Part shown: positions 2 to 64,000 of the stretch, one piece after another
Position numbering within the stretch: the first letter of the stretch is position 1
Layout of the letters: every line of letters starts with the position of its first letter
Translations under genes and position numbers: made by a program
NCBI GenBank assembly: GCA_017549025.1
Contig: JAFYWB010000029.1
Coordinates: 1-64,000 of the forward strand
Length of the DNA: 64,000 nucleotides
Direction: 5' to 3'
From: Treponema sp.
GTDB taxonomy: Bacteria > Spirochaetota > Spirochaetia > Treponematales > Treponemataceae
The notes under the pieces: generated by a model
Databases searched by the model: none
Told to the model about the DNA's origin: nothing
The model's input: the letters and a program-made list of their open reading frames with translations, nothing else

Positions 2-2362
2 GAAACAGGCTTTGAAGAAAGCCTTCAGGGAAATCAAGAGATAGAAATTAACATTGATGATTTTATGGCTGATTCTGATGAGGTTTCTCTTGATGAATTC
101 CTTTCAGATTCAGGAGAGGTTTCACTGGAAGCCTTTATCGATACTCCTGCACAGGAGAAAAATGATATTCTTGATGAGCTTCCCATGGAAATGGAGCTTA
201 CCTTTGATGACGATTTTGCCGTAAAAACTGCCACCGACCCAGTAAACCAAATGGATGAATCATTTTCCATCGAAAGCATGGATGAATTTGACCAGATGTT
301 TGACAATATTGTGGATGAGGCAGAGGTTCCAGAAGAAACACAACAAAAAACAGAAGAAGTGAAAGCCGTAATCCAAGATATGCAGTTTGATGAAGTAAGC
401 GAGTTTGATGATTTCTTAAGTGATTTCTCCCAGCCTGAGCCAAAGCAGCAGGAACCTAAGGAAGAAGTACAAAAGGACTATAACCTTACCGTAACCATGG
501 ACGATGATACAATTTCCACATCTGAAATACCTGAAACAGATTCTGATCAAGAGAATAATGAAGAAATTCTTCTATCAACTCCTAAACCAGAAGAAAAAAA
601 TGAAAAAAATGAAGAATCAAGTATTGCTAGATTGGAAATTACAGATTATACTAATAAAGGCTACGATTCTGATGATTTCGATGTAGATAAAATTATGGCC
701 GAAGTGGAAGATATTGGAGAAAAAACAGAGGAAATTCAACCAGACCAGGTTGTCTCTTCTTTTGAATCCTTCGATAACCAGCAAATGCAGGAAGAATCAC
801 AGAAATGTATCACGGAAAAGCCGGAGGAAGCTATGGAATTTAACCAGAAAGAAATGGAACAGCCAGCCGTATCACCAACAGAAGAACTTATCCGTAATAT
901 TGCTGGTGAGATAGCACTGCTTAGAAATGAGATTTCAAGTCTCAGAAACGATTTTGAAGCCTTTAAATGTGGTAAAGACACTGCAACAGAGGATGAACCA
1001 GCCCAAGAAGAAGTCCAACAAGAAACTTCTAGTGGATTCTTTGCTGATGATTCAGATGATGATACTATCGCCTTATCTGGAGATGAATTATCCAATATCT
1101 TTAACACAGCTGATTTTACCGAGGAATCTGTAGAAGCAGAAACACAGATTACCGATGAGGATTCTGACAATGGACTTCCTTCTATGGACTTTGATTCAGA
1201 AACCTTGGAAGAGCCTGTTATTGATGATGATTATTTCCAAGACGATGATGCTGATGACTTCCCTGCAGAAATAGATGTGCCTACAGGAATCGTTGCCCAG
1301 CAGGAGCAAATTTTTGAAGAAATTGAGCTGGAAGAAGAAGATCAGGGAACAGAGGAAATCTTTGAAGAAGTAGATACTGCTGAATCAGAGTTTGCCAATG
1401 ATAGCTTTGATGTAACCGAAGAACAACTGGAAGAATATAACGACGGAGATAACACTGTAGAATCTTTTGAAGAGCTTACAGAAGAATCAATTACAGAAGA
1501 TTTTGTAGAGCCTGCTTTGGATTCCTTCGTAGAAGAAATTGCAGAACCCGAAGAAGAAGTCTTTGAAGAGCCCGTTGTAGAAGAGATTGTAGAAGAAATC
1601 AGCGACGAGCCTGTAGAAACTGTATTTAAATCAACCCAGTGGGATGAGCTTGAAGCTACAGAAGAAGCAGAGCCTGTTGTAGAAGAACTCGTTGAGGAAG
1701 TAGTTGAACCTGTTGCAGAAGAAACCCCCGAGGAGCCTCTGGTAGAGGAGCCCGTCGATGAGCCTGTTGTAGAAGAGCTCGTTGAAGAAGTAGTTGAACC
1801 TGTTGCAGAAGAAACCACTGAGGAGCCTCTGGTAGAGGAGCTCGTCGATGAGCCTGTAGAAACAGTATTTGAATCCACTCAATGGGATGAGCCTGCTGTG
1901 GATGAAACCATGGGATTTGCTTCTAACACTGTTGAGGAAAGCGCCTTTGCAAATGATCCTCTTATCATTGAGGAGCCTGTAGACACTGTTACTGTAGCAG
2001 AGGAAGAGCTTCTGGAGGAATTGGCAGAGATTCCTGTAACAGACGCCTTAGAAGAGATTACAGAGGCAGCTGCTATTGAAGAAGTGGCAGAGGAAAGTGC
2101 TGAAGAAGTAGAACCTGCTGTTGAAGTTGTAGAAGAGGTTGAAGCAGAACCTGTTGCAGAGGTTATAGAAGAGCCTGTTGTTGAAGTTGTAGAAGAAACC
2201 AAGACAAACAATCTTCCTGATGACCTGAAGCAGGATATTAAGTCTGTTCTTTCCTACATGGATCAGTTGTTGGACAACTTGCCAGAAGATAAAATCGCAG
2301 AGTTTGCTCGTTCCGAGCACTTTGAGTTGTACAAGAAATTATTTACAGAATTTGGATTGTAA
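2..2362 (+). CDS. Acidic, repeat-rich low-complexity protein (5' end outside window)
   Basis: The reading frame is open to the left edge of the window (codons from base 2), so the first visible ATG at 65 is probably internal and the true start lies upstream. The product is extremely rich in Glu, Asp, Val and Pro, with many EEP/VEE repeats around residues 470-720 and two exact-length 90-bp tandem units inside. The last 50 residues (after LPDDLKQDIKSV) are not low complexity: they look like a helical module with the pattern YMDQLLDNLPEDKIAEF and may be the conserved functional end. No signal peptide or membrane segment is visible in the part seen. The stop overlaps the next start (TAATG), so the two are translationally coupled in a five-gene operon with two DUF115 proteins. 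I do not recognise the family; a scaffold or interaction role is only a guess. Confidence 0.8.
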   Translation, partial: ETGFEESLQGNQEIEINIDDFMADSDEVSLDEFLSDSGEVSLEAFIDTPAQEKNDILDELPMEMELTFDDDFAVKTATDPVNQMDESFSIESMDEFDQMFDNIVDEAEVPEETQQKTEEVKAVIQDMQFDEVSEFDDFLSDFSQPEPKQQEPKEEVQKDYNLTVTMDDDTISTSEIPETDSDQENNEEILLSTPKPEEKNEKNEESSIARLEITDYTNKGYDSDDFDVDKIMAEVEDIGEKTEEIQPDQVVSSFESFDNQQMQEESQKCITEKPEEAMEFNQKEMEQPAVSPTEELIRNIAGEIALLRNEISSLRNDFEAFKCGKDTATEDEPAQEEVQQETSSGFFADDSDDDTIALSGDELSNIFNTADFTEESVEAETQITDEDSDNGLPSMDFDSETLEEPVIDDDYFQDDDADDFPAEIDVPTGIVAQQEQIFEEIELEEEDQGTEEIFEEVDTAESEFANDSFDVTEEQLEEYNDGDNTVESFEELTEESITEDFVEPALDSFVEEIAEPEEEVFEEPVVEEIVEEISDEPVETVFKSTQWDELEATEEAEPVVEELVEEVVEPVAEETPEEPLVEEPVDEPVVEELVEEVVEPVAEETTEEPLVEELVDEPVETVFESTQWDEPAVDETMGFASNTVEESAFANDPLIIEEPVDTVTVAEEELLEELAEIPVTDALEEITEAAAIEEVAEESAEEVEPAVEVVEEVEAEPVAEVIEEPVVEVVEETKTNNLPDDLKQDIKSVLSYMDQLLDNLPEDKIAEFARSEHFELYKKLFTEFGL
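1670..1849 (+). repeat. Two 90-bp in-frame tandem repeats
   Basis: Bases 1670-1759 and 1760-1849 are near-identical 30-codon units (EPVVEELVEEVVEPVAEET...). They are bracketed by two copies of a second motif, VETVF(K/E)STQWDE, starting near 1607 and 1850, exactly 243 bp (81 codons) apart. All differences keep the frame, so copy number can change without breaking the protein. Confidence 0.9.
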
Positions 2363-3189
2363 TGGGTTTATTAAGCCACATGGAGGCCATACTTGCCAGT
2401 GATTCATCCTTTTTGGATGCTGGCAGTATGGCTGATTCCAACCAAAAGCAGAAAATTGCGGATTACCACAGTTTCTCAAAAAGGACTGCATTAAAACAAA
2501 GTGCAGTCCTTGTACCTTTTGGTAGGCGTTTTTTCATGCGGTATGAGCATGGATTTGATGCTGAAACCATCTTCAAATCTATTTCTTCCGTTGATTTTTG
2601 GAACGGAACAATTCCCCAGAATCAGCAATGGCATTCTTTTTCTGGGGATGAATTAGAGCCCTTTTATCAGCTTTTTTCAAAGGATTGCATTCACAATCTT
2701 ACCCATTTGCACATAAAATCCTTTGTCTTGCTGGCAGATATACCAATCCAGGCAATTATGATTATTGCTGATGAAACCATCAACCAAGAGCTTATTGACG
2801 ATACAATTCCTGAATTGGCTGATTATATTGCAGCAGAAATGTTAAATACCATTGAAGTGATTCCTCCTACTCCCTTACGGGCAGGAAGCAGAAGCTTTTG
2901 CGTTTCCATAAAAGATGCTGTTGCAGAGATTACCGATTTATTATATATCGATACTGAAGCCTTGGATTTATTGTTCCCAGTAGTTTTATCAGAAACACTG
3001 AATAGACTGCAGCACATACTTTCAAAACAGGACATTGTTTTCCCTCTCAATGATTTTGATATCGTACTGTTCTTTTCTCAGGCAGACAATCTTGATGCAG
3101 ATTTGCTTCAGTTCCAGTTAAAGAAATATTTTGCATCCTTGTTGGGTACATCTTCCTCTAAGATTCTTGTTGAATCAGTGCAGTCATAA
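2362..3189 (+). CDS. Conserved-looking hypothetical protein, 275 aa
   Basis: The ATG overlaps the previous stop by one base (TAATG), a classic sign of translational coupling. The protein is soluble-looking, with no signal peptide or clear membrane span. It has alternating helical and beta segments, such as IKSFVLLADIPIQAIMIIAD near residue 115 and a C-terminal NDFDIVLFFSQ...LLQFQLKKYFASLLG region that resembles the closing strand-helix unit of a small alpha/beta domain. I cannot assign a family. Its place directly before two DUF115 genes suggests it works with them, but this is context only. Confidence 0.75.
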   Translation: MGLLSHMEAILASDSSFLDAGSMADSNQKQKIADYHSFSKRTALKQSAVLVPFGRRFFMRYEHGFDAETIFKSISSVDFWNGTIPQNQQWHSFSGDELEPFYQLFSKDCIHNLTHLHIKSFVLLADIPIQAIMIIADETINQELIDDTIPELADYIAAEMLNTIEVIPPTPLRAGSRSFCVSIKDAVAEITDLLYIDTEALDLLFPVVLSETLNRLQHILSKQDIVFPLNDFDIVLFFSQADNLDADLLQFQLKKYFASLLGTSSSKILVESVQS

Positions 3190-58143: not shown

Positions 58144-59400
58144 ATGACTTGTCTTGAAAAGATACAAGTTGTCTCACAACAAGAGTCAGCCGTTTCAGCT
58201 TTGGACGGCTGGCTTTTTACTGATTTTGCAGGCAGAGACAATCTTACAAAAGACCTGCTTCAATTACCCTTAGATGGAATGACCACCCGACGGTGGATTT
58301 ACATTGTACCTCCCATGGGAGAACCAGTAAAGATTCTTCATAAAATTGAACCTCACGCTCTAGACTCCCTTCCCGGTGAGCATAAGATTTTTTATTCCTC
58401 CCAGCAGGAATTAAAGGCTGCCTTGTCCCAGTACAAGGAGAAGACCTTGGCTCTCCTGTGGGATCCAAATTTGCCAGTTATCTCCACTGTTGATGGTGGA
58501 TTTATCACCCTTCTCCAAGGAGAAGGAATTACAATTACCAGTGCCGCAAAGCTTTTGCAGCGTTACAAGGGAATTCTTTCTGCAGCAAGCATTCAAAGTC
58601 AGGAACGAGCAGCTGCATTGCTCTATAAAATCATTTATGACACCTGGGATTTTATCTGCCAGCATTATCGTTCCAAGGAGCCCTTGAACGAGCGGGCAGT
58701 ACAAATCTTTATCTTGGAACAATTCTATAAGTATAAGCTCACTACAAACCATAGTCCCGTTGTTGCCTTTGGAGCCCATACTGGAGACCCCCACTACGAG
58801 GTTCCAGAAGATGGTGGCAAGGTAGCCGAAGAGGGCGATATTATCCAGTTGGATATTTGGGCCAAGGAGCGACTGGCAGATGACGGCCAAGGTGGTGTTT
58901 CTGCCACAGTACCTGCTTATGCAGACATTTCGTGGGTGGGTGTTTTTGGTGATGTAGTGCCACAGGAAGCTGAAAAAAGATTTTCCGTCCTGTGTCAGGC
59001 ACGAGATTCTGTTGCCACGGCCATTACAGAGGCTGCAACAAAAGGAATCCGCCTCACTGGTGCAGAGCTAGATCTTCAGGTTCGTTCCATTATCGAAAAG
59101 GCTGGATACGGCAGCTACATCAAGCACCGAACTGGTCATGGCATTGACTCTGAAGTCCACGGAAGTGGCACCAATCTTGACGGAAGCGAGTTCCCCGATT
59201 ACAGACAGCTATTGCCTGGTAGTAGTTTTTCTGTGGAACCAGGAATTTACGGACAGGATTTTGGTATGAGAACTGAAATCGACATTTATATCGATGAAGC
59301 TGGCATGCCCATTGTGTCTGGGAAGAAATTCAACCAAGGAAAGCTCGGTCAGCACTCCATTCCCCAGCAGAGACTTCTTACAACCAAGGATATATTATGA
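58144..59400 (+). CDS. M24-family metallopeptidase (aminopeptidase P-like)
   Basis: 418 aa, cytoplasmic. N-terminal creatinase-like region (about 1-160) and a pita-bread M24 domain. Metal-binding residues: first Asp in IIQLDIWAKE, second Asp in ADISWVGVFGD, His in RTGHGIDSEVHG, Glu in FSVEPGIYG and Glu in RTEIDIYI. One motif reads LDIWA in place of LDxG, which hints at altered metal or substrate geometry. These enzymes cleave X-Pro dipeptides or related amides. It overlaps the next gene by ATGA. Confidence 0.85.
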   Translation: MTCLEKIQVVSQQESAVSALDGWLFTDFAGRDNLTKDLLQLPLDGMTTRRWIYIVPPMGEPVKILHKIEPHALDSLPGEHKIFYSSQQELKAALSQYKEKTLALLWDPNLPVISTVDGGFITLLQGEGITITSAAKLLQRYKGILSAASIQSQERAAALLYKIIYDTWDFICQHYRSKEPLNERAVQIFILEQFYKYKLTTNHSPVVAFGAHTGDPHYEVPEDGGKVAEEGDIIQLDIWAKERLADDGQGGVSATVPAYADISWVGVFGDVVPQEAEKRFSVLCQARDSVATAITEAATKGIRLTGAELDLQVRSIIEKAGYGSYIKHRTGHGIDSEVHGSGTNLDGSEFPDYRQLLPGSSFSVEPGIYGQDFGMRTEIDIYIDEAGMPIVSGKKFNQGKLGQHSIPQQRLLTTKDIL

Positions 59401-60395
59401 AGATTATAACTGATGAGCAGGCACAGCAATTCAAGGACTTTGTGCAGGCATACGACAGCTTCATTATTGTGGGACACAAGGAACCAGATGGAGACTGCAT
59501 TGCCTCTTCCTTGGGGGTTGCAGCAATTCTGAAAAAGATGGGCAAGCCCTACCAGCTGATTTCAGCAGGCCCCTTCAAGCGCACCGAAATCAAGGACTAC
59601 GAAAAGCTTTTTGGACGGCAGGCTACAGTTCTGCAAACTGGAAAGAAAACTGCAATGATTATTGTAGATTGTGGAGAGTTCAAGCGTATCGGAGAAATTT
59701 TTTCTCAGGATACCCTTGTTATGGACTTGTCCACCCGTCCCACCTTTTTCATAGACAATCACAAAACCTCATCTCCAGAATCTCTAACCTATATCATTGA
59801 GCCTACCTCACCTGCTACCTCCTATTTGGTTCAGCAGCTCTACGAAAAATTGGTTGGTCCCTTGGACAAGGATACCGCTCAGATTCTTTTCTTTGGTTTG
59901 TGTACCGATACAGGATATTTCCGTTTTCTGGAAGAAAATTCCAGCGATATCTTTATGGCAGCAGCCCGCATGGTTGAAGCTGGGGTAAGCCCTCGAACCA
60001 CCTATGACACCATGACAAGCGGTAAGCCCTTTTCCACCAGAAAGCTGTTAGGAGTACTGTTGGAGCGGTCTACCCAATATTACGATGGAAAACTCATTAT
60101 CACCTACGAAACCCAGGATGATACCCGACGATATGGCGGCGAAGGGCGGGATTCTGATAGCCTCTACCAACTGCTTTTGTCCTGTGTGGGAGTAGAAGTA
60201 GTAGTATTCATTCGTCAGGAAACGGAGCAGTCCTGCACCATGGGACTTCGTTCTAAGGACCAGGTGGATGTAAGCACCGTGGCAGCAAGCTTTGGTGGCG
60301 GTGGACATAAAAATGCCTCTGGCTGCAGTACCCCTGGTACCATCGACGAATTGATTCCCAAGCTCCTTGCAGAGTTTGAACCAGCCTTAAAATAA
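59397..60395 (+). CDS. DHH-family phosphoesterase, NrnA-like
   Basis: 332 aa. DHH/DHHA1 phosphoesterase: VGHKEPDGDCIAS (DGD), IIVDCG (DCG), IDNHKTS (DNHK, which takes the place of DHH), CTDTGYFRF, and the DHHA1 signature FGGGGHKNASG near the end. NrnA acts on nanoRNA (2-5 nt) and on 3'-phosphoadenosine 5'-phosphate (pAp). Length and motif order fit NrnA. ATG overlaps the M24 stop; terminator at 60406-60442 closes the run. Confidence 0.9.
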   Translation: MKIITDEQAQQFKDFVQAYDSFIIVGHKEPDGDCIASSLGVAAILKKMGKPYQLISAGPFKRTEIKDYEKLFGRQATVLQTGKKTAMIIVDCGEFKRIGEIFSQDTLVMDLSTRPTFFIDNHKTSSPESLTYIIEPTSPATSYLVQQLYEKLVGPLDKDTAQILFFGLCTDTGYFRFLEENSSDIFMAAARMVEAGVSPRTTYDTMTSGKPFSTRKLLGVLLERSTQYYDGKLIITYETQDDTRRYGGEGRDSDSLYQLLLSCVGVEVVVFIRQETEQSCTMGLRSKDQVDVSTVAASFGGGGHKNASGCSTPGTIDELIPKLLAEFEPALK

Positions 60396-60405
60396 GCACT
60401 GAAAA

Positions 60406-60442
60406 AAAAGATTCAAAGGTTTTCCTTTGAATCTTTTTTTTT
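60406..60442 (+). terminator. Intrinsic terminator after NrnA-like gene
   Basis: AAAAGATTCAAAGG (60406-60419), loop TTTT, CCTTTGAATCTTTT (60424-60437), then T-run. Confidence 0.9.
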
Positions 60443-60443
60443 A

Positions 60444-60689
60444 TTACGGTTCTACAATTTTTGGAGAACCGTAACAAAGGCGAGTCAAGGGTTTAAGCAA
60501 AGCGTCCCTTGACCGACTGTCTTCAAAAAGTTCTCAAAATCTCCTAAAAAATTTATTTTTTCTCTTTTTATAAATTTTTTAGATTTTTTTATAATAAAAA
60601 TAAAGAAAAATAAATTTTTTAAAATAAAAAATCTCGGAAATTCCCTACAAATATATCAAAAAAATCTAGTTTTCCACACAATTTTAAGT
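60444..60689 (+). other. Non-coding region with two inverted repeats and A/T tracts
   Basis: About 340 bp between the NrnA-like stop and the next ATG hold no gene. IR1: TTACGGTTCT (60444-60453) and AGAACCGTAA (60465-60474). IR2: GTCAAGGG (60484-60491) and CCCTTGAC (60506-60513). Then about 120 bp of A/T runs (60538-60660), likely bent DNA. The spacing fits activator sites and a looping region for the sigma-54 promoter just downstream, though IR1 may only be a second terminator arm. Confidence 0.55.
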
Positions 60690-60706
60690 TGGCACGATTC
60701 TTGCAA
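60690..60706 (+). promoter_or_regulatory. Sigma-54 (RpoN) promoter
   Basis: TGGCACG-ATTC-TTGCAA: the -24 GG (60691-60692) and -12 GC (60703-60704) are in the required register and both elements match the consensus. Predicted transcription start about 60715; AAGGAGG (60723-60729) and ATG at 60736 follow. Confidence 0.85.
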
Positions 60707-60735
60707 TATATTCAGTATCATTAAGGAGGCATAAA

Positions 60736-61617
60736 ATGCTAGCAGTCAACAAAATTTATGTGTGTTACAAAAATCAGGAAATTTCAAAGGAAAAGGCAGT
60801 ATCCTGTCTTTTAGCTGAAATTTTCAAGTCGCCCTTGTACTATTGTACGGAGCGTTTACCAGAAGATGAAATCAGTAGCTTTCTCATCTGGATTCATCAC
60901 CACATTCCCAAGATACTGGAAAACTATGATGATTCCAGTACCACCTTTCTCACCTACTTCACCTCCAGCGTACGCCTTAGGTACAAAAGCTGGAAGAGGT
61001 CAACGGTAAAGCAACGGTGCTTTCAAGAGGTACTGGATAACCAACAGTATCTAGATTATACGGAATCAAACGAAAATGAATCCCAAGTAAGCGAAACGCC
61101 ACCAGAGTATGAAATAGAATCTGAAAATAACATCAGCTTGAAGGAGCCATTGACAAAAAAACAGGCAACTACCCTTCTGGTTTTGTCATTGAAGTCCTAT
61201 TACCTGCTTTCAGATAGAGTCGTCGCAACGATTCCTGCCCTCACAGGGATTAGTCCCCAGGAATTCAGCCAATACTTAAGGTCCATTGAAGATAAGATGC
61301 AGGACAAGCTAGAAATCCGCAAACACTTGGAAAATCGGGTAAACATGTCCTATATCATGTGCCAGCAATATGCCATTGAGCTGTCAAACATGACCGCAGA
61401 TAGCTGCCAGTATCAGATTGTTTTCCAAAAATATGAAAACCAGAAGAAAAAGCTGGATTACTTGAGATACCGGCACAAGACCTTCAATTTGAAGCCATCA
61501 AACAGAATGGTGGAGGATGTTTTGAATTTGCCAGAAGGAAGCGTACGTAGGATTCTAGCTACTGCAGGTAAATCAATCGATCAAATTCTCTCGCTTCTTG
61601 ACCTTAAAAAGGAGTAA
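60736..61617 (+). CDS. Sigma-54-controlled HTH/sigma-like protein of unknown function
   Basis: 293 aa with a perfect AAGGAGG site 6 nt before the ATG. I do not recognise the family. Residues 10-95 have a helical pattern similar to sigma-70 region 2 (ENYDDSSTTFLTYFTSSVRLRYKSW resembles the F..Y....R.R stretch). An acidic linker (about 105-130) follows, then a helical domain. The C-terminus (PSNRMVEDVLNLPEGSVRRILATA) looks like a helix-turn-helix. So it may be a DNA-binding regulator or alternative sigma/anti-sigma-type protein; this is inference. Driven by a sigma-54 promoter, it is likely induced by an enhancer-binding activator. Confidence 0.7.
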   Translation: MLAVNKIYVCYKNQEISKEKAVSCLLAEIFKSPLYYCTERLPEDEISSFLIWIHHHIPKILENYDDSSTTFLTYFTSSVRLRYKSWKRSTVKQRCFQEVLDNQQYLDYTESNENESQVSETPPEYEIESENNISLKEPLTKKQATTLLVLSLKSYYLLSDRVVATIPALTGISPQEFSQYLRSIEDKMQDKLEIRKHLENRVNMSYIMCQQYAIELSNMTADSCQYQIVFQKYENQKKKLDYLRYRHKTFNLKPSNRMVEDVLNLPEGSVRRILATAGKSIDQILSLLDLKKE

Positions 61618-61632
61618 ATGATAGGATAAACT

Positions 61633-62319
61633 ATGAAAATTTACTTTGCATCAGGAAATTTACACAAGAAACAGGAAATGCAAGCATTATTCCCGGAATT
61701 TGACCTTGTAATTCCATCGGAAGAAGGTATTCACTTTGATCCAGAAGAAAATGGCTCCAGCTTTTTGGAGAACAGTCTCATAAAAGCTCAAGCCCTGTGG
61801 AATATCGTCCGCCAGCCAGTATTAGCCGACGATTCTGGTATCTGCGTAGATATCCTCAAGGGAATTCCTGGAATTTATTCTGCTCGCTACGGAGGCCCGG
61901 ATTTTCCCAAGGGAAAACCTGACGGAACAAAGCCAAGCCAGGGGGAACAAAATCAATTCCTTATCCAACAAACAGATTCTGCCCTCCAGGAGCTTGCTTC
62001 CCAGGGTATAACATTACCTGAAAATCCACGGAGTTGCCGATACGTTTGTGCCATGGTCTTGTATCTTGGACCAGATAGATTTTATTCTGCCCAAGAAACC
62101 ATGGAGGGCAGCCTCATCCAGAGCTTGGAGCTTTCCCGAGGCTCTGGTGGCTTTGGCTATGATCCCATAGTTATTCTTGCAGGAACGGATAAAACCATTG
62201 CCCAGCTTTCTGCACAGGAAAAAAATGCCCTTTCCCACCGTGGAAAGGCTGCCCGAGGTCTACACCAAATTCTTTTGTCTCTGGCGCCAGATGCTTTTGT
62301 CTCTGGTGGCATCCACTGA
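61633..62319 (+). CDS. rdgB: XTP/dITP diphosphatase (RdgB/HAM1)
   Basis: 228 aa. Removes non-canonical purine triphosphates from the pool. N-terminal IYFASGNLHKKQEM (SxNxxK substrate motif), LADDSGICVD, ARYGG, GGFGYDPI and SHRGKAARG: all hallmarks in order. An insert of about 15-20 residues around 95-120 (PKGKPDGTKPSQGEQ) is extra compared with short family members. AGGA lies upstream of the ATG, 15 nt after the preceding stop, so it may be co-transcribed from the sigma-54 promoter. Convergent with the following methyltransferase gene. Confidence 0.95.
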   Translation: MKIYFASGNLHKKQEMQALFPEFDLVIPSEEGIHFDPEENGSSFLENSLIKAQALWNIVRQPVLADDSGICVDILKGIPGIYSARYGGPDFPKGKPDGTKPSQGEQNQFLIQQTDSALQELASQGITLPENPRSCRYVCAMVLYLGPDRFYSAQETMEGSLIQSLELSRGSGGFGYDPIVILAGTDKTIAQLSAQEKNALSHRGKAARGLHQILLSLAPDAFVSGGIH

Positions 62320-62322
62320 CAA

Positions 62323-63123
62323 TTACACCTTGAATGAGGCATCTTCTTGTTTCTTGAACAAAAAGATTCGAGGAGATGCCTTTCCAAGGTATTCCAACCC
62401 ACAGGTTCTTCCACAGGCTTCCATGGCTTTTTCCGTATAAAAGGACACATGAGTTCTGTCGTCCTTGTACCACCACTTTTTAAAATCCTCTGGAATCACC
62501 ATTTCATCAGGGATTGGCAAAGTTCCCACTGCAACAAAACCGCCAGCACAACAGCAATCCGCCAAACCAGCAAAGCCATCCCAAGGCTGCTCAAAATGCT
62601 CTGCCACCTCAAGGCACAAAACCAAGGGTACCTTCCCCCTCTTTCCCTCTGGAGCAAAAAAAGGGTCCCATCCTCCAATGGCATCCTTGTCTGGCAAGGC
62701 AGGAAGAACTTGAGCCAGTTGTTCCACACAAGAGTCTAAGCTTTGAATTTCCTGCCACACCAGTTTTTTTTCAAAAGATTTTTCCTGACGTTGCCTTTCA
62801 GAAATTAATTTCAATAGCTGCACCATAGCTGGATTTGGTCCGCTTCCATAATCTAAAATTCCAGAAAGCTGAAAGGACGGAAGAGATCCAAAAGTATTGA
62901 GCAAAAAGGCTCCAAGAAATTGTGCGTAGCCTAAATCCTCCAAGGTATTATGATGGTAATTGTAGCGCTGTAGCTGCTGTGAGCTAGATAAAAAATCCTT
63001 TTCCGACAAAGAAATAGCCTTGCAACAGCCACAACGAAAATATTCACTACTGCGTTTTTTCGTGACAATCAAAAACGAGGAAACATCTTTATAACCACAA
63101 AATTTACATCGGGAAAAAAGCAT
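62323..63123 (-). CDS. SAM-dependent methyltransferase with N-terminal zinc ribbon
   Basis: 266 aa. Four cysteines (CKFCG...CGCC) at residues 6-33 suggest a zinc ribbon. A class I Rossmann domain follows with motif I ILDYGSGPNPAMV near residue 88 and the acid-rich VLCLEVAEHFEQPWDGF region. Similar proteins are grouped as methyltransferase type 23, substrate unknown. It is divergent from flaB with overlapping promoter DNA. TATAGT is 5 nt before the ATG, with no ribosome site. Confidence 0.85.
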   Translation of the reverse strand: MLFSRCKFCGYKDVSSFLIVTKKRSSEYFRCGCCKAISLSEKDFLSSSQQLQRYNYHHNTLEDLGYAQFLGAFLLNTFGSLPSFQLSGILDYGSGPNPAMVQLLKLISERQRQEKSFEKKLVWQEIQSLDSCVEQLAQVLPALPDKDAIGGWDPFFAPEGKRGKVPLVLCLEVAEHFEQPWDGFAGLADCCCAGGFVAVGTLPIPDEMVIPEDFKKWWYKDDRTHVSFYTEKAMEACGRTCGLEYLGKASPRIFLFKKQEDASFKV

Positions 63124-63128
63124 ACAAA

Positions 63129-63157
63129 ACTATAATTTATCCTCAAGAAAAAAGCAA
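63129..63157 (-). promoter_or_regulatory. Promoter of methyltransferase gene, predicted leaderless
   Basis: TTGCTT (63152-63157), 17-nt spacer, TATAGT (63129-63134), 5 nt before the ATG. It overlaps the flaB promoter on the other strand. Confidence 0.6.
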
Positions 63158-63169
63158 TTCAACCGATAT
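63143..63169 (+). promoter_or_regulatory. Sigma-28 (FliA)-type promoter of flaB
   Basis: TCAA (63143-63146), 15-nt spacer, ACCGATAT (63162-63169), close to TAAA-N15-GCCGATAA, the flagellar late-gene consensus. It leaves a leader of about 140 nt. Confidence 0.7.
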
Positions 63170-63272
63170 TCATTATGAAGAGTTGTATGGAAGGACAGCT
63201 TCGTTGAAGGATCCGACCATACATTTTCACCGTAAGTTATCACTAATGTAGCCTTGTAGTGTAAACTTGCAA

Positions 63273-63294
63273 CGGACAGCAGGGAAGTTGTCCG
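63273..63294 (+). promoter_or_regulatory. flaB leader hairpin with CsrA-like GGA loop
   Basis: CGGACA (63273-63278) pairs with TGTCCG (63289-63294) around a 10-nt loop GCAGGGAAGT, which resembles the CsrA core ARGGAUGU. A second GGA is in the ribosome site GGAGG (63308-63312). Confidence 0.45.
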
Positions 63295-63318
63295 AAAACA
63301 ATTCCATGGAGGAAAAAT

Positions 63319-64000
63319 ATGGTTATCAACCACAACATGTCAGCTATGTATTCCAACCGCCAGCTTGGTGTAACAAACGTAAGCTTGCAGAAGGACATGG
63401 AAAAGCTCTCATCCGGAATGAAGATCAACCGGGCCGGCGACGACGCTTCAGGACTTGCAGTATCTGAGAAGATGCGTGCACAGATTCGTGGCTTGAACCA
63501 GGCTTCTCGGAACGCATCTAATGGTATCAGCTTCATCCAGGCAACCGAAGGTTACCTGCAGGAAACAACTGATATCATGCAGCGCATCCGCGAGCTTGCT
63601 GTTCAGTCAGCCAACGGAATCTACACCGACGAAGATCGTATGCAGATTCAGGTTGAAATCTCTCAGCTGGTTGCAGAAGTAGACCGCATTGCTAGTTCAG
63701 CACAGTTCAACGGATTGAACATGCTTACTGGACGCTATGCAAAGCAAACAGGTGAAAACTCTGTAACAGGTTCTATGTGGTTCCATATCGGCGCCAACAT
63801 GGACCAGCGCATGGAAGTTTACATCGGTACAATGACCGCTGTAGCTCTGGGCGTTCGCGAACTGGGCGACGAGACAATCATTAGCTTGGCATCACCGGCT
63901 GAAGCCAACCGCGCAATCGGTACTATCGACGAAGCATTGAAGAAGATCAACAAGCAGCGTGCTGACTTGGGTGGATACCAGAATCGTCTTGAGCATGCAG
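63319..64000 (+). CDS. flaB: Periplasmic flagellar core protein FlaB (3' end outside window)
   Basis: 227 codons visible; the frame is open at the right edge, full length is normally about 286 aa. N-terminal flagellin D0/D1 region ([39 protein letters not shown]), identical in kind to treponemal FlaB core filaments, which lie between the membranes and drive cell-body rotation. GGAGG lies 6 nt before the ATG. No signal peptide, as expected for export through the flagellar type III apparatus. Codon use is strongly C-ending, as for highly expressed genes. Several flaB paralogues usually exist, so the exact copy (flaB1, 2 or 3) cannot be told. Confidence 0.95.

Follow-up and report, generated by a model that had tools for sequence, protein, structure and literature searches.

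How alternative sigma factors are controlled in Treponema is largely unknown. The DNA analysed here, a 64,000-nt stretch from a Treponema sp. genome (positions 1 to 64,000 of contig JAFYWB010000029.1; hereafter the window), carries a gene for a 293-aa protein, which we call X. The gene is preceded by an apparent promoter for RpoN (sigma-54), and its product itself looks like a sigma factor. Two questions follow from this locus, namely whether RpoN controls X and whether X in turn acts on transcription. The features on which the answers depend are collected in Table 1.

Table 1. Features of the X locus (window positions) and three further genes behind RpoN sites (positions within the loci named)
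Feature	Position	Strand	Basis
nrnA-like DHH/DHHA1 phosphoesterase	59397-60395	+	Pfam DHH 8.9e-13, DHHA1 8.8e-11; NCBIfam NrnA 4.6e-20; synteny anchor
Intrinsic nrnA terminator	60402-60441	+	18-bp arms, 4-nt loop, T-run (inverted-repeat scan)
Inverted repeat 1, TTACGGTTCT-N11-AGAACCGTAA	60444-60474		Exact 10-bp arms; no counterpart in L002
Inverted repeat 2, GTCAAGGG-N14-CCCTTGAC	60484-60513		Exact 8-bp arms; no counterpart in L002
A/T-rich stretch	60546-60676		87% A+T; relatives here also more A/T-rich than in the gene
Sigma-54 (-24/-12) promoter, TGGCACG-N4-TTGCA	60690-60705	+	Exact match; conserved in 22/29 orthologues
Shine-Dalgarno sequence AAGGAGG	60723-60729	+	Sequence; good Shine-Dalgarno sites in most orthologues
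X, 293-aa sigma-70-like protein	60736-61617	+	Orthologues in 40/59 relatives; TIGR02937 in 19/29 members
X residues 1-113, region-2-like domain	60736-61074	+	AlphaFold2 pLDDT 93.7; nearly all structural neighbours in PDB are sigma region 2
X residues 250-285, C-terminal HTH (PSNRMVEDVLNLPEGSV)	61483-61590	+	TIGR02937 region 4 alignment in orthologues; hhalign region 3
rdgB/HAM1 NTP pyrophosphatase	61633-62319	+	Pfam Ham1p_like 5.2e-46; 15-nt gap after X, order conserved
Hsp20	L045 (G000:C39) 1581-2015		RpoN site upstream
RpoH/RpoS-like sigma, 273 aa	L046 (G000:C44) 1548-2369		RpoN site upstream
RpoD/RpoS-like sigma, 282 aa	L048 (G000:C53) 1611-2459		RpoN site upstream

The X transcription unit

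Because a strong terminator ends nrnA, X should form its own transcription unit. The nrnA-like gene was found 5' of X in most relatives, and a similar terminator also lies 3' of nrnA in the closest relative, L002, whose upstream region retains both this terminator and the promoter. Judged from the sequence, rdgB is probably co-transcribed with X, and the order nrnA, promoter, X, rdgB is conserved in the family; where the flanks sufficed, X sat between nrnA and rdgB in almost every relative. Beyond rdgB, a methyltransferase-like gene (62323-63123, minus strand) is convergent to it and syntenic in many relatives. By eye, a sigma-28-like promoter (TCAAGAAA-N11-ACCGATAT) is possible at 63130-63318, 5' of a flagellin gene at 63319.

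A conserved RpoN promoter upstream of X

An exact -24/-12 sigma-54 site, TGGCACG-ATTC-TTGCA (TGGCACGATTCTTGCA), with GG at -24, GC at -12 and the correct spacing, lies directly upstream of X. The position of the GC, 60703-60704, predicts a transcription start at about 60716, which is 7 nt 5' of AAGGAGG and 20 nt 5' of the ATG at 60736. An earlier note on this DNA had placed the start about 20 nt before the Shine-Dalgarno sequence; the distance was right but the reference point was not, as it is the ATG that these 20 nt precede. A comparison of the leader with Rfam returned nothing near the gathering score.

A pattern search with TGGCACGNNNNTTGCW gave a single zero-mismatch match in the window, the X promoter, and three in the 2.48-Mb genome, the X promoter among them. 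When up to one mismatch was allowed, the sigma-54 pattern had 37 forward matches in the genome, compared with 11 for the reversed control. Sites with up to two mismatches were mostly intragenic and were discounted as chance. That the two-mismatch pattern is near chance level within the window is the one result that fits a reading of the X promoter itself as a chance match, with the housekeeping sigma transcribing X. This reading is barely credible to us, as it is contradicted by the recurrence of the site at the same position and on the same strand in other genomes. A site matching at least 10 of 12 positions was present within 150 bp 5' of the start in 22 of 29 orthologues, in four of them perfectly, and TGGCA and TGC were invariant across these 22. 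By comparison, 0.57% of shuffled upstream sequences reached at least 10/12, and at most one of 26 control stretches of any kind did so (the reverse strand, the nrnA 3' end, the opening 150 bp of X, the stretch 5' of rdgB). Six orthologues had no such site, and three of these belong to another family of the order. Promoter-to-start distances among orthologues are somewhat uncertain because start codons were picked by Shine-Dalgarno strength. With rpoN also present in the genome, these data bear out the near-consensus RpoN promoter that the earlier note had described.

The same note had pointed to oral treponemes as having RpoN. The nearest named relatives, returned by a profile search with a five-sequence X alignment, were four MAGs, three of them from ruminant gut; we refer to the genome here as that of a gut-type Treponema.

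RpoN activators and the upstream repeats

The genome encodes, besides rpoN (G000:C12:9106-9579; Sigma54_DBD, 2.8e-51), three bacterial enhancer-binding proteins (bEBPs) with a Sigma54_activat domain (E 6.4e-56 or better). One is a REC-AAA-Fis protein of the Rrp2/NtrC type (L033) and another a GAF-AAA-Fis protein (L034). The third, L035 (G000:C18), is a REC-AAA protein of about 373 aa that would have to work without an enhancer, since Pfam recognised no DNA-binding HTH in it. The activator that the earlier note had in mind, AtcR, was rejected because it carries a LytTR domain and is a LytTR response regulator, not a bEBP (PMC7586716, PMC12070737). In T. denticola, the protein predicted to activate sigma-54 is Rrp2 (PMC12070737).

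Two inverted repeats upstream of the promoter had been proposed as enhancers, 215-260 bp upstream of the start and separated from the promoter by about 120 bp of A/T tracts. Both repeats exist, but together they span -292 to -223 relative to the X ATG. The A/T-richness also holds (87% A+T across 130 bp, from about 190 to about 60 bp 5' of the ATG), but the gap between the end of repeat 2 and the promoter is 176 bp. We do not treat the repeats as a conserved enhancer, because L002 lacks both of them, despite 92% identity in nrnA. Nor did any GC-containing 7-9-mer recur in three of the four regions upstream of sigma-54 sites in this genome. The stretch 60402-60514 holds three inverted repeats in series, where the closest relative shows only the terminator.

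Some sigma-54 systems can do without an enhancer. The lack of a conserved one at X does not count against RpoN control, because Borrelia rpoS is reportedly activated by Rrp2 in an enhancer-independent manner, as the title of a paper referenced in PMC3037356 puts it.

X resembles sigma-70-family proteins

X matched the sigma70-ECF model TIGR02937 at 4e-4 and 20 bits, below the curated cut-off of 42.9. Among the orthologues that the model also matches the best value was 8.9e-8, and in three of them (L010, L014 and L030) the match extends from region 2 through the C-terminal HTH. By way of these three the HTH aligned to region 4, and hhalign placed it in region 3 (E 7.7e-5) against the RpoH-like group of the genome's own sigmas. 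We call X sigma-70-like rather than a proven member of the family because hhalign against alignments of the genome's own sigmas gave no region-2 signal. A Pfam Sigma70_r2 search of the genome missed X, and a sequence search of solved structures returned RpoS at best, with E 0.15 or worse.

AlphaFold2 gave a pLDDT of 87.7 for the whole protein and 93.7 for residues 1 to about 114. Foldseek with the whole model returned nothing significant (E 0.5 or worse), and sigma factors recurred in the list. With the N-terminal domain as query, sigma chains aligned at region 2 made up about 43 of the best 50 PDB neighbours. E. coli sigma-E headed the list (2map; TM 0.54/0.61, 3.2 A), and E values ran from above 0.8 up to 8, none individually significant. 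The region-2 reading is thus drawn from the consistency of the neighbour list and not from any one match. Between region 2 and the HTH, the model places a helical, coiled-coil-like insert of about 130 residues. The region-2-like fold and C-terminal HTH that the earlier note had claimed are therefore supported by the model, its structural neighbours and the TIGR02937 alignment.

That X acts as a sigma factor is, from its sequence and model, a good hypothesis. Its weak sequence similarity to sigmas and long insert would also suit a sigma-derived activator or repressor that acts in an RpoN stress regulon by binding DNA, having lost core binding and kept region 2 and the HTH. So would its very rapid divergence (67% identity, against 92% for nrnA) and a Ser in region 2.2 where many sigmas carry the Gln that contacts core. 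However, the best-conserved parts of X include the region 2.2-2.4-like residues ED..S.F..W, SSF.TY and KSW.R, which fits retained contact with the polymerase, and we consider loss of core binding rather unlikely.

In a second alternative, X would associate with RNA polymerase as a modulator, for instance as an anti-sigma or in competition with other sigmas, and so tune a cascade. A sigma-like fold without convincing sigma scores and the predicted co-regulation of X with two true sigmas are in keeping with such a role. Because X has its own HTH and matched no anti-sigma family in Pfam, NCBIfam and other family model searches, we hold this to be quite improbable. No anti-sigma gene was found adjoining X, where nrnA and rdgB are the neighbours in almost every relative with sufficient flanks. 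Two true ECFs elsewhere in the genome each have after them a Cys-containing gene that by eye looks like an anti-sigma gene.

Of 295 Spirochaetota genomes, 184 had a match to a profile of X, though some of the weaker matches, in distant families, may be to other sigma-like proteins. The profile had no match in the small Borrelia-like genomes sampled (f7).

RpoN sites at two sigma genes and Hsp20

If X is a sigma factor behind an RpoN promoter, it is not the only one. An extended motif, ARGTTGGCAYRNNNNTTGCW, had four perfect matches in the genome, each just 5' of a gene: X, Hsp20, an RpoH-like sigma and an RpoS/RpoD-like sigma. As the motif was built after inspection of these same four sites, their exclusivity is partly by construction, and the independent evidence is conservation. 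In relatives drawn from across the order, sites matching at least 10 of 12 positions were seen before the RpoD/RpoS-like gene at 24 of 25 loci and before the RpoH-like gene at 22 of 24, with one locus (L120/L152) counted in both sets and start positions approximate. The regulon as given here was defined by pattern searches.

Similar sets of sites were present in other genomes. In G001, RpoN sites lie 5' of both sigmas and Hsp20, and in G045 they lie 5' of both sigmas, X, two Hsp20s, a Dps-like gene, a peroxiredoxin-like gene and others. In G028, a reduced, T. pallidum-like genome of 1.1 Mb from the same family, the X profile had no match, yet RpoN sites persist 5' of a sigma factor and a Dps-like gene. 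Assignments of sigma, Hsp20 and X in these three genomes were confirmed by blastp, and the Dps and peroxiredoxin names come from reading the sequences.

Two further observations concern these sites. Two of the four exact TGGCAYRNNNNTTGCW sites of G028 are those 5' of the sigma and Dps-like genes (L167, L171), and the other two fall within long reading frames. Near-identical repeated TGGCACGAAAGTTGC sites occur in G023 (C1, about 954763-966231) and G045 (C1, 484233, 489780 and 1992513), mostly with no ORF directly downstream; such sites might be part of a repeated element or of small RNA genes.

The sigma cascade proposed in the earlier note is supported and is broader than claimed there, since RpoN sites are conserved at two further sigma genes. 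The pattern predicts a branched, RpoN-headed sigma cascade tied to stress genes. We consider it probable that RpoN activates X as a divergent sigma-70-family protein, one of three sigma or sigma-like arms plus protective proteins. An AAA+ activator, once switched on, would allow RpoN-RNA polymerase to start X-rdgB transcription at about 60716. This activator would most likely be the Rrp2/NtrC-type REC-AAA-Fis protein, or perhaps the HTH-less one. X, with its region 2, long helical insert and C-terminal HTH, would then most likely join core RNA polymerase and redirect transcription. In this spirochete order the RpoN-driven arms would be X, the RpoS/RpoD-like sigma and the RpoH-like sigma, together with Hsp20-type protective proteins.

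A larger claim has two parts: that X represents a new sigma-70-family class, marked by its long insert, across much of Spirochaetota, and that the main role of RpoN in Treponematales is as a 'sigma of sigmas', with three sigma arms and protective proteins. We put this forward tentatively, as a reading that has a real chance of being right but falls somewhat short of an even one. A conserved RpoN promoter at two stress sigmas, X and Hsp20 amounts to a concrete, testable wiring diagram, and it points to one RpoN master switch that would turn on several other switches.

Comparison with known systems

A search of the open-access literature gave no account of genes under RpoN in Treponema, and subscription papers may hold earlier reports. 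Among other spirochetes, RpoN regulation occurs in Leptospira, with EbpA. Unlike the genes described here, the RpoN targets there are amtB and lipoprotein genes rather than sigma factors (PMC12655853).

As a protein, X shares with ECF and other sigma-70-family members (TIGR02937) a region-2-like domain and a C-terminal HTH, which are colinear in several orthologues. It differs from them in its insert of about 130 residues, its score below the cut-off and the lack of a neighbouring anti-sigma gene. SigI-type factors offer another comparison, as SigI6 is among the region-2 structural neighbours and one orthologue weakly matches the SigI model. In contrast to these, X has no significant family match and no anti-sigma gene of the RsgI kind beside it.

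The closest parallel in wiring is Borrelia burgdorferi, where RpoN driving RpoS is established (PMC3037356, PMC4014564, PMC3162934). As in its Rrp2-RpoN-RpoS pathway, an RpoN site lies directly 5' of a sigma-70-family gene and an Rrp2-type REC-AAA-Fis activator is present in the genome. No conserved enhancer was found at X, which is likewise in line with the enhancer-independent activation of rpoS named in the title cited in PMC3037356. Unlike in Borrelia, the Treponema RpoN sites precede two sigma-70 factors as well as X and Hsp20, and X was not found in the Borrelia-like genomes sampled. This comparison suggests that the RpoN-RpoS link of Borrelia is one instance of an older spirochete design.
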